Under the pieces are notes generated by a model, which saw only the letters and a list, made by a program, of their open reading frames with translations, was not told where the DNA came from and made no database searches. DNA of 64,000 bases from Centipeda artemidis DSM 19719 (GTDB lineage Bacteria > Bacillota > Negativicutes > Selenomonadales > Selenomonadaceae): positions 62,001 to 126,000 of the forward strand of contig NZ_AUFU01000001.1 of NCBI RefSeq assembly GCF_000426665.1, written 5' to 3'. The position numbers and the translations under genes are program-made. Positions 2,356 through 37,083 of this stretch are shown piece after piece (position 1 is the stretch's first letter; each line of letters opens with the position of its first letter).

Positions 2356-3756
2356 TTACCCTTCGAAATATGCTCTAATGATTTGCCGCGCAATGCCCGC
2401 CGCAGCCCTGCCGCCAAAGCCGCCTTCCTCCACAAGAATAGCCATGACGATCTTTTTCCCGCCTCGCTCCGCCGAGCCGATGAACCACGCGTGATCCGTT
2501 CCGGTCGCGTTCTCCGCCGTCCCAGTCTTACCCGTGACGCGCACGCCGGCAACGTCCGCCGCCGTCCCCGTGCCCGCCGCGATGACCTGCGCCATATAGC
2601 CGTCGATGAGCGCGGCACGCGCGGGCGTCGTCGCCGTCCTCCACACAGACGGTGCACCGCGATAGAACGCCGTCCCGTCCGCCGCGACCACGGCGTCCAC
2701 GAGATAGGGCTGCATGATCTCGCCGTTATTTGCAAAGGCGTCCGCAATCAGCGCCATCTGGAGTGGCGTCACGAGAATCTGCCCCTGACCGATGCCGATC
2801 TGCGCGATCTCGCCGTCGCTGAGCTGCGATAACTCCGGTACATGCGCCGCCGACGTCAGTTCGGGTGTCGTGAGTTCCTCCCCGACGCCGAACCGGGAAA
2901 ATCCCTTGGAAAGTCCGCCCGCCCCAAGGCGAAGCGCAAGTGTCGCAAACGTCACGTTGCAGGATTCGCGCAGCGCGTCCGCAAGATTTAATTTTCCATG
3001 CACCTCTCCGTGACTCTCATGCAGGACATAATCCGTTCCGATCGCAAGCTCGCCCGTACAGGTGAAGATCTCGTCCTCCGAGGTCACGCCCGCGGTTAGC
3101 GCGGTATCCGCGATGAGCGGCTTGAACGTCGAACCGGGCGGGTACAGCCCCTGTGTCACGCGGTTCAGCAGCGGGCTGTCCGCGCGTGCGGTGAGCGCAT
3201 CCCAGTCCCGTTCAACGGTACCGGGATCGACGGCAGGTGTGCTCACCATCGTGAGCACAGCGCCGGTCGCGGCATCCATGACGACGACCGCGCCGCGATG
3301 CGCGCCGAGCGCGCGCCATGCCGTCTCCGAGAGCGCAGCGTCCACCGTCAGGCGCACGTCATAGCCCGCGTCCGCACGCAGGAGCGTGCGCAGAGGTCCC
3401 ATGCGATCCATATCGCCGGTCACGCCCGAGAGCGCTCTGCCCTCCACGCGCTCCATCCCTGCCGCGCCGTAACGCTCCGTACGGTAGCCCGTCACGGGCG
3501 CGAGCGCCGCACCGTAGGGATAGCTCCGATGCCCCGCGGCATCACTCTCGGCAAGGACGCTGCCCGTACGGTCGAGGATGCGCCCGCGCCGCACGTCGTT
3601 TTCGGCGAGCGCCGCCCGCGCGTTGAGCGGATGCGCGGCAAGCGACGCGGCATCCCACACGCTCAGTTTGACGAGATAGAGGAGCTGTACGCCGACGAGT
3701 CCGAGCAGGAAGAGCGCGACGACGGCGATGTGCTTTCGAATCCGCGGCTCAGCCAT
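2356..3756 (-). CDS. pbpA: Penicillin-binding transpeptidase, PbpA-like class B PBP
   Basis: D,D-transpeptidase that cross-links peptidoglycan outside the cytoplasmic membrane. From the ATG at 3756 it has 466 residues: a signal-anchor helix near 9-30, a short dimerisation region, then the transpeptidase fold with SxxK (S209-T-F-K212), SCN (265-267) and KTGTAE (from K410). The start at 3756 is preferred over an upstream in-frame start at 3780 because AGGAGG stands 9 bases before it and it overlaps the SEDS gene stop by 8 bases. The pairing with a SEDS polymerase suggests a polymerase/transpeptidase couple, as in the actinobacterial rodA-pbpA cluster. Confidence 0.93.
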   Translation of the reverse strand: MAEPRIRKHIAVVALFLLGLVGVQLLYLVKLSVWDAASLAAHPLNARAALAENDVRRGRILDRTGSVLAESDAAGHRSYPYGAALAPVTGYRTERYGAAGMERVEGRALSGVTGDMDRMGPLRTLLRADAGYDVRLTVDAALSETAWRALGAHRGAVVVMDAATGAVLTMVSTPAVDPGTVERDWDALTARADSPLLNRVTQGLYPPGSTFKPLIADTALTAGVTSEDEIFTCTGELAIGTDYVLHESHGEVHGKLNLADALRESCNVTFATLALRLGAGGLSKGFSRFGVGEELTTPELTSAAHVPELSQLSDGEIAQIGIGQGQILVTPLQMALIADAFANNGEIMQPYLVDAVVAADGTAFYRGAPSVWRTATTPARAALIDGYMAQVIAAGTGTAADVAGVRVTGKTGTAENATGTDHAWFIGSAERGGKKIVMAILVEEGGFGGRAAAGIARQIIRAYFEG

Positions 3757-13726: not shown

Positions 13727-13753
13727 GAAAAGACTGCCGCATAGAAGCAGCAG
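13727..13753 (-). terminator. Terminator-like hairpin directly upstream of queD
   Basis: On the minus strand a 7-bp stem (13747-13753 with 13734-13740, one G-U pair) and a 6-base loop are followed by TCTTTTC, just ahead of the queD ribosome-binding site. It could end the psd-pssA-GT2 transcript after it crosses the repeat element, or act as an attenuator of queDE. I did not find a preQ1-I aptamer pattern upstream. Confidence 0.5.
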
Positions 13754-13828
13754 CCATGTTTTATCTCCCTATGATTGTCCAGAATTTTTCTAAGCTGCAC
13801 CGCTAGGTGCCACCGCCACGATAGCCTA

Positions 13829-13955
13829 AGCGACGCGGAAGTTTCGATGCAGCGCAAGGAATGAGGAGAACGCGAAGGAGGCGTAGTTAAGACCTACGTC
13901 GACTGATGCGTTCGACGACATGACACAGCGATGCGCGAAAATCCCGTGTCACGCC
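13829..13955. repeat. Structured dispersed intergenic repeat, copy A
   Basis: About 127-bp element ending just before the stop codon of the GT2 gene. It shares long blocks with copies B and C: GACGCGGAAGTTT..GATGCAG at one end, and ATGACACAG..ATGCGC..AAAATCCCG at the other. The centre folds into an outer stem GAACGC (13868-13873) with GCGTTC (13908-13913) and an inner stem GGCGTAG (13880-13886) with CTACGTC (13894-13900). The same nested stems form in the other copies with different bases. It encodes no plausible protein. Orientation and function are unknown. Confidence 0.82.
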
Positions 13956-13956
13956 T

Positions 13957-15237
13957 CTATGCGCCAAAATCGCGCTTCACGACCTCGTCCATGCTCATCG
14001 CACGGGTGTGTTTGGTATGACTCCACTCATGCTCGTTCCTGTGAATAAACCCGAGGAAGATGATCGGGATCCACGAGTAGATGAACACGGGATAGAGCAG
14101 GAGGTAGAACCACGCTTTGAGTTTGGCGCGGACTTTGATCAGGATGATCATCGGCAGGACGTACTGCCCGATCATGATGACGGTCATGAGCTGGGACGGG
14201 AGGAATTTATAAATGCTCGTATAAAAGGGCGGGAATGCAAGCTGCACATAGCTGATGATGATGAACAAGGTTGAGATCATGAGGAAGTGCGGCTGCAGGA
14301 GGTAGAGACACCCGTCCCAAATGCGGATGTCCCTGCGCCGCCATCCCTCGCGCAGCATGGTCGGAATGAATCGATGCGCGACGTCGAACTGCCCCTGCGC
14401 CCAGCGGCGGCGCTGGTTCCACGCTTGGCGGAACGTCAGCGGCTTCTCGTCGTAGACGATGGCGTCGTGCGCCCATGTGGTCTTGATGCCCTCGGCGAGG
14501 AGCTTCATGGTGAACTCCATGTCCTCGGTGAGACAGGTCGCGCGCCAGCCGTGGCGTTTCAGCACGTCGGTCGTGATGCACATGCCCGTGCCGCCGAGAC
14601 ACGCGGAGAGTCCGATGTTCGTCTTGGCAAGGTGGGAGATGTGGTCGATGACCCAGAACGCGATGGCAAACGTCCCCGCGACCCATGTGTCATACGGATT
14701 CTTCGCGTCGAGATAGCCCTGAATCACCTTGTCGCCCTTGAGGAGGCGGTTGTTCATCTCTTTGAGGAAGTTCGGGTGGACGAGGTTGTCCGCGTCAAAT
14801 ATGGCGACGGCGTCGTATTCCTTATCCATGGTGAAAAGGCGGTCGAACATCCACTCAAGGGCAAAGCCTTTGCTCTTCTTCGTCGGGTGCGTACGCTCAC
14901 AGACGATCGCGCCGGCATCCGCCGAAATCTGCGCAGTCGCGTCGCTGCAGTTGTCCGCGATGACGTAGATATCGTAGAGTTCGTCGGGGTAGTCGAGCCG
15001 CTTTAGATTCTCGATGAGCTGTCCGATGACCGCTTCCTCGTTGTGCGCGGCGACGACGACGGCAAAGTTTTTTTCCGGTGTGAGGATCTTCTTCTCTTTG
15101 CGCCGCCACAGGCAGCAAAAGCCGATGAAGAAGAAGTACAGGGTAAAGAGCAGAATAAAAATCTGCACCGGTATCATGACGATATCGAAGGGATGTGCCG
15201 GCAGGAGCGGCGAGAGAGAGTGAATAATCTCAGTCAT
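13957..15237 (-). CDS. Membrane-bound family 2 glycosyltransferase (processive type)
   Basis: 426 residues: two N-terminal transmembrane segments (about 20-45), a cytosolic GT-A domain, and about three C-terminal helices (about 325-400). Catalytic landmarks are VVVAAHNEEAVI, the DAD metal motif (AIFDADNLV), TED (CLTEDMEFT) and the QRRRW signature (NQRRRWAQGQF), which is the pattern of cellulose/poly-GlcNAc/hyaluronan-type synthases. The product cannot be told from sequence. Six bases downstream of pssA, so coexpressed with phosphatidylethanolamine synthesis; it may make a glycolipid or an exported glycan. Confidence 0.88.
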   Translation of the reverse strand: MTEIIHSLSPLLPAHPFDIVMIPVQIFILLFTLYFFFIGFCCLWRRKEKKILTPEKNFAVVVAAHNEEAVIGQLIENLKRLDYPDELYDIYVIADNCSDATAQISADAGAIVCERTHPTKKSKGFALEWMFDRLFTMDKEYDAVAIFDADNLVHPNFLKEMNNRLLKGDKVIQGYLDAKNPYDTWVAGTFAIAFWVIDHISHLAKTNIGLSACLGGTGMCITTDVLKRHGWRATCLTEDMEFTMKLLAEGIKTTWAHDAIVYDEKPLTFRQAWNQRRRWAQGQFDVAHRFIPTMLREGWRRRDIRIWDGCLYLLQPHFLMISTLFIIISYVQLAFPPFYTSIYKFLPSQLMTVIMIGQYVLPMIILIKVRAKLKAWFYLLLYPVFIYSWIPIIFLGFIHRNEHEWSHTKHTRAMSMDEVVKRDFGA

Positions 15238-35206: not shown

Positions 35207-35440
35207 AACGATACTCCTTCCGTCAAGTGCAATATAAAACCGCGCATTATTTTAGCACAATGCACGGTTATTTTCTATGTTTGTTGTTGATACGCCCCTC
35301 TCGGCAGGCAAGCCTTCCACGGAAATGTGACATCACGCCGCTCGCCCCTGGTATATGGCGGCGTATGACACGTCCGGCGCAGTAAAGGGGAGTATAACGA
35401 CGCTGGGCTCCAAAATCCCGCATCCAATCGCCGCAACCTG
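35207..35440. other. Non-coding gap with degenerate repeat copy
   Basis: No gene. Nearest the aminotransferase lies a terminator-like hairpin (35236-35267). The part from about 35340 to 35440 looks like a decayed third unit of the repeat: it keeps GGCGGCGTA, TATAACGACGCTG and CAAAATCCCGC in the same order as copies B and C but has lost the central stems. Confidence 0.5.
35236..35267 (-). terminator. Terminator-like hairpin upstream of the aminotransferase
   Basis: Minus-strand CCGTGCATT (35259-35267) pairs with AATGCGCGG (35240-35248; one G-U), followed by TTTTATATT. It likely ends transcripts coming from the M18 gene through the repeats. The loop contains TGCTAAAAT, a possible extended -10 for the aminotransferase. 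Confidence 0.6.
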
Positions 35441-35575
35441 AGTGACGCGGAAGTTTGGATGCAGAGCAAGGAATGAGAAAAACACAAGCGCCGGCGTAGA
35501 AAAGCTACTACAAGCGCAGTGTTTTTTCGATATGACACAGCTATGCGCCAAAATCCCGCTGCACACCGTACACTA
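35441..35575. repeat. Structured dispersed intergenic repeat, copy B
   Basis: About 135-bp unit, tandem with copy C. Shares with copy A the blocks GTGACGCGGAAGTTT, GCAAGGAATGAG and ATATGACACAGCTATGCGCC followed by AAAATCCCG. Outer stem AAAAACAC (35478-35485) pairs with GTGTTTTT (35519-35526); inner stem GTAG (35496-35499) with CTAC (35505-35508). The outer-stem bases differ from copy A on both sides yet still pair. Confidence 0.82.
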
Positions 35576-35697
35576 AGTGAGGCGCCAGCTTTGATGCACA
35601 GCTAGGAATAACGAGAATGCGAGCGACGGCGTAGTAAAAAAGCTACTCCTAGCGAAGCATTCGAAGTTATGACAACGCTGTGCGCAAAGATCACGTC
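35576..35697. repeat. Structured dispersed intergenic repeat, copy C
   Basis: About 122 bp, ending exactly at the stop codon of the M18 aminopeptidase gene. More diverged than A and B but retains TTTGATGCA, CTAGGAATAACGAGAA, GGCGTAGT, TTATGACAACGCTGTGCGC. Outer stem GAATGC (35615-35620) pairs with GCATTC (35657-35662); inner stem GTAG (35631-35634) with CTAC (35643-35646). Confidence 0.78.
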
Positions 35698-37083
35698 TCA
35701 CGTCAACAGGAATGCGTCGTACCCCTTCTTCATTTCATAAATATCCGCCTTACTCGTCACTTCCCACGGGGCGTGCATACTCATAACGGCGACGCCGTTG
35801 TCGATGACGTTCATGCCGTAGTTCGCCATGATATAGGCGATTGTTCCGCCGCCGCCGAGGTCGACGCGCCCGAGCTCTGCGAGCTGATAGCTGACGCCCG
35901 CGCCGTCCATAATGCGGCGCAGTTCGCCGAGGTACTCGGCGCTCGCATCGCTCGAACCTGATTTGCCACGCGCGCCTGTGAACTTGTTGAATACCATGCC
36001 GCGCCCGAGGTAGGCGACGTTTTTCTTTTCAAAGGCGTCGGCATAGAGCCCGTCGTATGCACTGGAAACATCCGAGGAGAGCATCTTCGAATGCATGAGC
36101 GTGCGGCGCAGGGCGATGTCGCTGTACTGTCCGCACGCGGAGAGGACTTCGGCGACCATGTTCTCAAAGAAACGCGACTGCATTCCCGTCGCGCCGACGC
36201 TGCCGATTTCCTCCTTGTCGACGAGGAGCGTACATGCGGTGCGGCGCGGCGCATCGGTCTCAAGCATGGAGCGAAGCGCGGTGTAGGAGCAGACGCGGTC
36301 GTCCTGACCGTAGCCGAGGACGAGGCTTCGGTCAAAACCGAGCTCGCGCGCGCGTCCTGCGGGAACGAGTGTCAGTTCCGCTGATTGGAAATCCTCCGCC
36401 GCAATGCCGTAATGTTCCTCCAGCAGGGCGAGGATACCGTCTTTGACGGATTCCTTGTCGTCCTTTTTGAGCGGCACACTGCCGATGAGGATGTCGAGTT
36501 TTTCGCCCTCGATAACCTTTGCCGCCGTCTTTTCAAGCTGTTCCTGCGAGAGGTGGATGAGGAGGTCGGTCACGCAGAACACGGGATCGCTCTCCTTCTC
36601 GCCGAGGACGATCTCGACGACGGCACCGTCCTTTTTCACCACGACACCGTGCAGCGCTAAGGGGATCGTCACCCACTGGTACTTCTTGATGCCGCCGTAA
36701 TAATGCGTGTCAAAATACGCGAGCCCGCCGTCCTCGTAGAGCGGGTTCTGCTTGACGTCGAGGCGGCAGGTGTCGATGTGCGCGCCGAGGATGTTCATGC
36801 CCTCTTCGAGCGGCGCCGTGCCGATGTGGAAGAGGACGATCGCCTTTTTCATATTGACGGCGTAGACTTTGTCGCCCGCCTTCAGCTTCTCTCCGCGCGC
36901 GACGAGCCCCCCGAGGTCGCGATATCCGCACGCCTCTGCGCGGCGCACTGCCTCGACAACGCTTTCGCGCTCGGTTTTGCAGGCCGAGAGGAAATCAATG
37001 TAGTCTCGGGCGAGGCCGTCCACCGCTGTGCGCTCTTCGTCCGAGTATTTCAGCCAGACGGACTGTTCTTTGGTATCGCTCAT
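35698..37083 (-). CDS. M18-family aminopeptidase
   Basis: 461-residue dinuclear zinc aminopeptidase of the M18 (aminopeptidase I/ApeA) family. Metal and catalytic motifs visible: NILGAHIDTCRLDVK (His, Asp), VLGYGQDDRVCSY (bridging Asp), LLVDKEEIGSVGATGM (catalytic Glu pair), HSKMLSSDVSSAYD, and the last ligand in VMSMHAPWEVTSKAD. Releases N-terminal, often acidic, residues from peptides in the cytosol. ATG 37083 follows AAAGG by seven bases. Its stop codon abuts repeat copy C. Confidence 0.92.
   Translation of the reverse strand: MSDTKEQSVWLKYSDEERTAVDGLARDYIDFLSACKTERESVVEAVRRAEACGYRDLGGLVARGEKLKAGDKVYAVNMKKAIVLFHIGTAPLEEGMNILGAHIDTCRLDVKQNPLYEDGGLAYFDTHYYGGIKKYQWVTIPLALHGVVVKKDGAVVEIVLGEKESDPVFCVTDLLIHLSQEQLEKTAAKVIEGEKLDILIGSVPLKKDDKESVKDGILALLEEHYGIAAEDFQSAELTLVPAGRARELGFDRSLVLGYGQDDRVCSYTALRSMLETDAPRRTACTLLVDKEEIGSVGATGMQSRFFENMVAEVLSACGQYSDIALRRTLMHSKMLSSDVSSAYDGLYADAFEKKNVAYLGRGMVFNKFTGARGKSGSSDASAEYLGELRRIMDGAGVSYQLAELGRVDLGGGGTIAYIMANYGMNVIDNGVAVMSMHAPWEVTSKADIYEMKKGYDAFLLT

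Follow-up and report, generated by a model that had tools for sequence, protein, structure and literature searches.

The analysed window, a stretch of 64,000 nucleotides from Centipeda artemidis DSM 19719 (contig NZ_AUFU01000001.1, positions 62,001 to 126,000), carries three full-length copies (A, B and C) of a short repeat, together with the remnants of two further units (Table 1). A comparison of gene ends with those of congeners showed that the tail remnant beyond copy A overlaps the last codons and the stop of the neighbouring glycosyltransferase gene, and that copy C contributes the stop of the aminopeptidase gene, whose best match (76%) is found in Selenomonas ruminantium. The terminator-like hairpin that precedes copy A resembles the intrinsic terminator found after the orthologous gene in relatives, and the element now lies between this hairpin and the gene.

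Table 1. Features of the two window sites, and the related hairpins found in the L10 operons of two congeners
Feature	Position	Strand	Basis and remarks
Copy A, full-length element (model positions 1-136)	13823..13957	+	cmsearch R1, 143.9 bits
Copy B, full-length element	35435..35569	+	cmsearch R1, 127.2 bits
Copy C, full-length element, head-to-tail with B	35570..35706	+	cmsearch R1, 133.1 bits
3' tail remnant of a second unit (model 103-134), limits approximate	13953..13983	+	nhmmer, 14 bits
Degraded, 5'-truncated unit (model 76-129), upstream of copy B	35371..35425	+	nhmmer, 15 bits
Glycosyltransferase family 2 gene (Pfam)	13957..15237	-	ORF list; last codons and stop in element tail sequence
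M18 aminopeptidase gene (Pfam)	35698..37083	-	ORF list; last codons and stop from copy C tail
Terminator-like hairpin	13730..13755	-	By eye, limits approximate
L10-operon relatives	L141 (G009) and L143 (G005), 1501-1637	sense	Two congeners without dispersed copies

The original prediction had described A, B and C as copies of a dispersed intergenic element, which was borne out, as they are three of 78 matches in this genome (G000). Its outer stems GAACGC/GCGTTC (A), AAACAC/GTGTTT (B) and GAATGC/GCATTC (C), as well as the inner GTAG/CTAC stem common to the three copies, are present in the sequence. The hairpin is therefore real, although the prediction covered only its middle, as the whole unit of about 136 bp forms one long imperfect hairpin from end to end, with a size of about 110-140 bp across the family. 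The consensus unit carries a terminal inverted repeat (GTGACGCGG/CCGCGTCAC) of the kind expected of MITEs, the CGTC at the unit end sits inside the paired terminal stem, and the outer helix is paired in 92.2% of cells among 118 distinct copies from G000 and from G013, a second genome of the genus. The stems vary freely yet stay paired, and the conserved parts are two internal-loop modules, the first consisting of GC-AAG-GA... with ...TGAC-ACA-GC and the second of GAAGGCGTAG-loop-CTACGTCGAG. An identity as an intrinsic terminator was rejected, since the consensus has no U-run after the stem and a separate terminator-like hairpin was seen by eye in relatives.

The + strand of copy A folds at -53.8 kcal/mol, and, against dinucleotide shuffles, the folding z-scores of A, B and C were -4.67, -3.29 and -6.49 for the + strand and -1.79, -2.88 and -3.39 for the - strand, with both strands of copy B nearly equal in folding energy. 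The + strand was the better folder in 96 of 117 full units; it presents GA-rich loops and recurrent wobbles, a U-G at one pair (108/118) and a G-U at another (82/118), and in a wider set the same two positions gave 35/66 and 46/67. At the other pairs, G-U was not significantly commoner than A-C (97 vs 75, p 0.11; 22 vs 23), so that the earlier alternative between an RNA and a folded DNA still stands, and the strand data favour neither RNA nor single-stranded DNA as the acting form.

A DNA search of the genome gave 55 matches, and the 78 mentioned above were obtained with the covariance model R1, which was built from alignment A2 (51 of the 53 full copies). Only two of the 14 genus genomes are rich in the element, G000 with 78 copies and G013 with at least 55, whereas the other 12 carry 0-2: two, one and two copies in G001, G004 and G011, one, two and one weak matches in G005, G006 and G009, and no R1 match in six of the 14 genomes. 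The core model R2 was based on alignment A5, A4 and A5 comprising 25 and 13 of the 29 core rows that remained of the 45 in A3 after 16 (antisense and misaligned rows, two L10-operon rows and duplicates) had been dropped. At E<=1e-5, R2 matched 58 of the 200 class genomes and 24 of the 299 phylum genomes scanned, G000 and G013 included in both, and gave no match in the remaining 142 and 275, the 'phylum' rank of the latter set being possibly narrower than Firmicutes. The class scan yielded at least 494 matches in the 58 genomes, with no more than 23 scored in any one of them, and 19 of the 58 have at least 12 each; the genus, class and phylum counts are all lower bounds, and some weak matches were lost to the stricter filters of the class and phylum scans. 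The two loop modules recur in these relatives on stems that are unrelated. Thus, a covariance-model search extended the element well beyond the window, and the proposal that it belongs to no described family also held: Rfam 15 gave no match over the element, with no family in the window at gathering scores, none over the element in L001, L002, L018, L338 and L340 at E<=1, and none over it in six relative loci at E<=10. Additionally, no description of a hairpin repeat of about 136 bp was found in the accessible parts of the literature searched. The family is apparently undescribed, large, and present in many genomes of the class and some beyond it.

An identity as 5S or another Rfam RNA was discarded; weak cross-family hits looked 5S-like, and Rfam calls none of them a known RNA and places some of them beside rRNA or tRNA genes. 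Carriage by plasmids or phages was rejected as well, copy A finding no match at the DNA level. When viral contigs were scanned for the pattern, 15 matches came up, among which L338, L339 and L340 (IMG/VR) look by eye like genuine elements, and either a phage or a host flank is possible for these three copies.

At both window sites, no element hit was obtained in the 12 congeners other than G013, and a terminator-like hairpin lies within about 80 nt past the stop in nine of the 10 congeners (of 12) inspected by eye at each locus. G013 has two units at locus A, where the counterpart of the tail remnant is a full-length unit, and a truncated copy at locus B/C (by eye), so this site is not empty. 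The finding that a unit truncated in G000 is full in G013 at one locus suggests that truncation followed insertion. One clean filled/empty pair was obtained at a third locus, with 15 nt in G013 against 314 nt in G000, the latter made up of one full unit and one tail remnant (the remnant by eye); no target-site duplication was apparent by eye at this single pair, whose left limit is uncertain.

G000 and G013 together have 111 arrays, 57 of which are multi-unit and head-to-tail; 22 of the 23 gaps between neighbouring full units measure 3-18 nt. Truncation at the 5' end affects the 5'-most unit in 36 of these 57 arrays, and 52 of them finish with a full 3'-most unit. Another short repeat was observed at L042 (about 2903-2980, G000:C5) and L225 (about 3061-3139, G000:C10:73854-73932), the two sequences sharing 95% identity over about 79 nt; it separates a decayed tail from a full element in one array and lies beside a partial element elsewhere. 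The gene context was assessed with longest-ORF gene calls in the 97 arrays whose best unit scored 60 bits or more, the other 14 having been dropped. In 65 of them an opposite-strand gene lies downstream, and 37 of these arrays have the element 3' end within -8..+2 nt of the stop of that gene, while the mirror case, a same-strand gene ending at the element 5' end, occurred in two of 44; many array sites are common to both genomes, and these counts are not independent. Read from the gene side, the element tail offers a TGA usable as a stop. Of 53 loci from other lineages, 50 had a downstream gene called, which is on the opposite strand in 32, with no sharp peak at the stop. A conserved neighbour gene was sought and rejected, since at most four of the 88 flanking proteins scanned (154 ORFs found) share a Pfam family. 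In L170 (G138) and L175 (G164), the element lies between two same-direction genes with nearly the same neighbours in both genomes, which are related, and pooled Pfam hits suggest that these neighbours form a histidine operon.

The orientation of the arrays relative to replication was also biased. The GC skew of the fetched G013 pieces switches near 1.37 Mb, and 35 of 45 G013 arrays oppose the leading strand inferred from it (p 2.5e-4), although this bias may be partly a consequence of gene orientation. According to the accessible part of one source, IS608 and ISDra2 are among the mobile elements that target the lagging-strand template (PMC6006769).

The proposal that structure is conserved through paired changes was upheld by RNAalifold, which predicted 34 pairs among 51 copies, 22 of them with a double change that kept pairing. 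In the 118 distinct copies from G000 and G013, 95.1% of pair cells form, against 84.2% in shuffled alignments, double-sided changes affect 25 of the 34 pairs, 469 double-change cells compare with 146.5 in shuffles, and the covariation score of 0.329 exceeds both that of shuffles (0.139) and the values of at most 0.060 obtained when partners were slid by 1-3 columns; a genome-wide alignment thus places covariation above chance. In 67 copies from other genomes across the phylum, 95.0% of cells are paired, against 73.6%, and the score is 0.572 against 0.189, while the number of double-change pairs (16) is less exceptional, being reached by five of 500 shuffles. Each alignment was fitted to its model and is biased towards it.

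Evolution in place gave a different picture from that expected if each copy were constrained. For 35 G000 units, each compared with its closest counterpart at that site in G013, some G013 units being used more than once, mean identity was 0.781, against 0.735 for 150 random pairs, and 12 of the 35 reached 0.84. Since same-site units are mostly little more alike than random ones, reinsertion and gene conversion are indistinguishable at most sites. Among the 12 copies that reached 0.84, treated as orthologous between the two genomes, 343 pairs were unchanged; where one side had changed, nine pairs were kept and 26 broken, and where both had changed, 19 were kept and three broken. The predominance of broken single changes means that single copies show no clear structural constraint, and selection is therefore more plausibly acting on the source lineages from which mobile copies descend. 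The earlier inference of selection on structure was thus right about the paired changes, which are real, and needs qualifying with respect to individual copies. By eye, the paired differences between copies are often whole exchanged cores. The kept double changes appear to be mostly such exchanges; as selection would also yield them, the in-place test is suggestive and not decisive. The best reading is that covariation reflects source lineages together with recombination, a caution against taking covariation between dispersed copies as a sign that every copy is under selection.

A set of relatives is found near stable-RNA genes. Rfam scans of 56 genomes besides G000 and G013, with L179, L181, L183 and L184 among the loci left out, showed by our reading 17 genomes in which the element lies no more than about 300 nt from an rRNA or tRNA gene, a share inflated by the use of the best-scoring locus per genome and by the partial seeding of R2 from such loci. 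The element runs in the sense direction relative to these genes in 16 of the 17 genomes, the exception being G418. Tandem pairs lie between two tRNAs of the 16S-23S spacer in G001 and between two tRNA genes in G011 (no rRNA was seen in the small part of that stretch covered), single copies lie in 16S-23S spacers in G004, G006 and G078 and between 23S and 5S in G051, and tRNA arrays hold copies in G041, G049, G081 and G171. In G005 and G009, a weaker relative occupies the sense direction between the L10 leader and the L10 gene; an identity as the leader itself was rejected, because the RF00557 match (40.7 and 35.8 bits, respectively, against a gathering score of 44) adjoins the hairpin and is not the hairpin.

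These elements are probably, with moderate confidence, non-autonomous dispersed mobile repeats of about 110-140 bp that depend on their hairpin, resembling ERIC, REP or MITE repeats. This reading is based on the abundance of copies in two genomes against 0-2 in 12 close relatives, the existence of sites without the element in relatives, the arrays with their 5'-truncated 5'-most and full 3'-most units, the frequent coincidence of 3' ends with the stop codon of an oppositely oriented gene, covariation far above controls both in the genus and across the phylum, the replication-strand bias, and the lack of a conserved neighbour among the flanking proteins scanned. A protein acting in trans would recognise the folded + strand, as single-stranded DNA or as RNA, through the two modules and would insert new copies, and each inserted copy would then persist as a passenger in a 3' untranslated region, where it would decay and recombine. 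Against it stand the failure of reverse transcriptase (RT) and Y1 searches of the genus genomes to find a mobiliser protein, the lack of an apparent target-site duplication at the one clean site, the limited likeness of most same-site units in G000 and G013, the occupied B/C site in G013 and the looser stop placement in other lineages. Nor would a random passenger be expected to read in the sense direction beside rRNA and tRNA genes in 16 of 17 genomes, a placement that also has no simple fit with the replication bias. This placement would instead be expected of a host RNA, that is, a transcribed hairpin cut by an RNase III-type enzyme, for instance, and serving as a processing or protection signal in rRNA and tRNA operons, with the dispersed copies as a secondary spread. 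The relative in the L10 operon of two congeners, the better folding of the + strand, and its GA-rich loops and recurring wobbles agree with such a role. We nevertheless regard it as rather unlikely, given that two-thirds of the arrays in G000 and G013 (65/97) run antisense to the gene downstream, that single copies show no clear constraint in place, that most class and phylum genomes lack a match at the threshold used, and that the rRNA/tRNA share is inflated by sampling. A further possibility, which we put forward tentatively, is that an undescribed structured-RNA module of the class and of other phylum members acts as RNA in rRNA and tRNA operons, where it would be processed or bound by protein at the two internal-loop modules, and has repeatedly escaped as a mobile repeat. 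If this were true, a transposable family would pass on an RNA shape as its signature, with stems otherwise free to change.

The nature of a putative mobiliser separates two further explanations. Mobilisation as a REP/BIME-type repeat by a RAYT (REP-associated tyrosine transposase) would suit the many copies, mostly 3' of genes, the hairpin and the replication-strand bias. Moreover, an intermediate-score Y1 protein was the best hit in 28 of the 58 element-positive class genomes against 12 of the 142 negative ones, and any Y1 hit occurred in 47/58 against 71/142; the threshold of the former comparison was set after looking, the association is confounded by phylogeny, an intermediate score may mean RAYT-like or merely partial, and two of the 28, G000 and G004, have hits that are fragmentary or partial. 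However, REPs are described in the accessible part of one source as 20-40 bp long with an unpaired GTAG or CGTC tag at one end (PMC3733652), against about 136 bp here, and the three genus Y1 proteins scanned (G013, G001 and G010) are IS200, with the RAYT model below cut-off. G010 has four Y1 hits and yet no element; the four hits of G000 are short and lie at contig ends, and G013 has one sub-threshold hit besides. A RAYT is an improbable agent on present evidence, and the intermediate Y1 hits remain a phylogeny-confounded lead for RAYT-type enzymes. Retro-mobilisation, in which a reverse-transcribed RNA copy would produce 5'-truncated units and template jumping would produce head-to-tail arrays, draws on the frequent truncation of the 5'-most unit (36/57), but PF00078 was not found in G000 or G013 and was found in one of the 14 genus genomes, and the locus at which only the G000 unit is truncated suggests later truncation. 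This route is disfavoured and considered very improbable.

Small repeats of bacteria are usually tracked by sequence, and a family with nearly unconstrained stems that is traceable across a phylum by its fold and two small loop modules is unusual, as is its repeated residence in rRNA and tRNA operons. It is not covered by Rfam 15 despite its many matches, some of them within such operons, and whether a protein acting in trans recognises a folded strand could be tested on it directly. Compared with known systems, the mobile repeats proposed here share with the ERIC/IRU elements of enterobacteria, which are imperfect palindromes also named RU-1, a small size, an intergenic and dispersed location and a MITE-like character. 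RU-1 measures 127 bp according to the accessible part of its source (PMC2759123), and the resemblance concerns size and palindromic form only; the present element occurs in another phylum, has two loop modules and is also found in rRNA and tRNA spacers. REPs, in the accessible part of a second source, occur in many copies, mostly downstream of coding regions, as plausibly transcribed hairpins with a suspected transposase (PMC3733652), and in copy number, location, hairpin form and suspected mobilisation by a transposase REP/BIME repeats resemble the element. However, the present unit exceeds them in length three- to sevenfold, the CGTC at its end is paired and its arrays are head-to-tail and not inverted; with about 136 nt and a paired CGTC, it was not assigned to the REPs, which have 20-40 bp and an unpaired tag, and no RAYT was identified in the genus among the three Y1 proteins scanned. 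Like MITEs, it is small and non-coding, with a terminal inverted repeat and a patchy copy number, but its inner structure is conserved and not its ends alone, and no target-site duplication was seen at the one site available. Processing hairpins are known as a class in rRNA and tRNA spacers, and the sense hairpins within the spacers of stable-RNA operons are similar to them, whereas the same modules are here also found at dozens of unrelated protein-gene ends. Small hairpin mobile repeats are an established kind, and what is new is this family.
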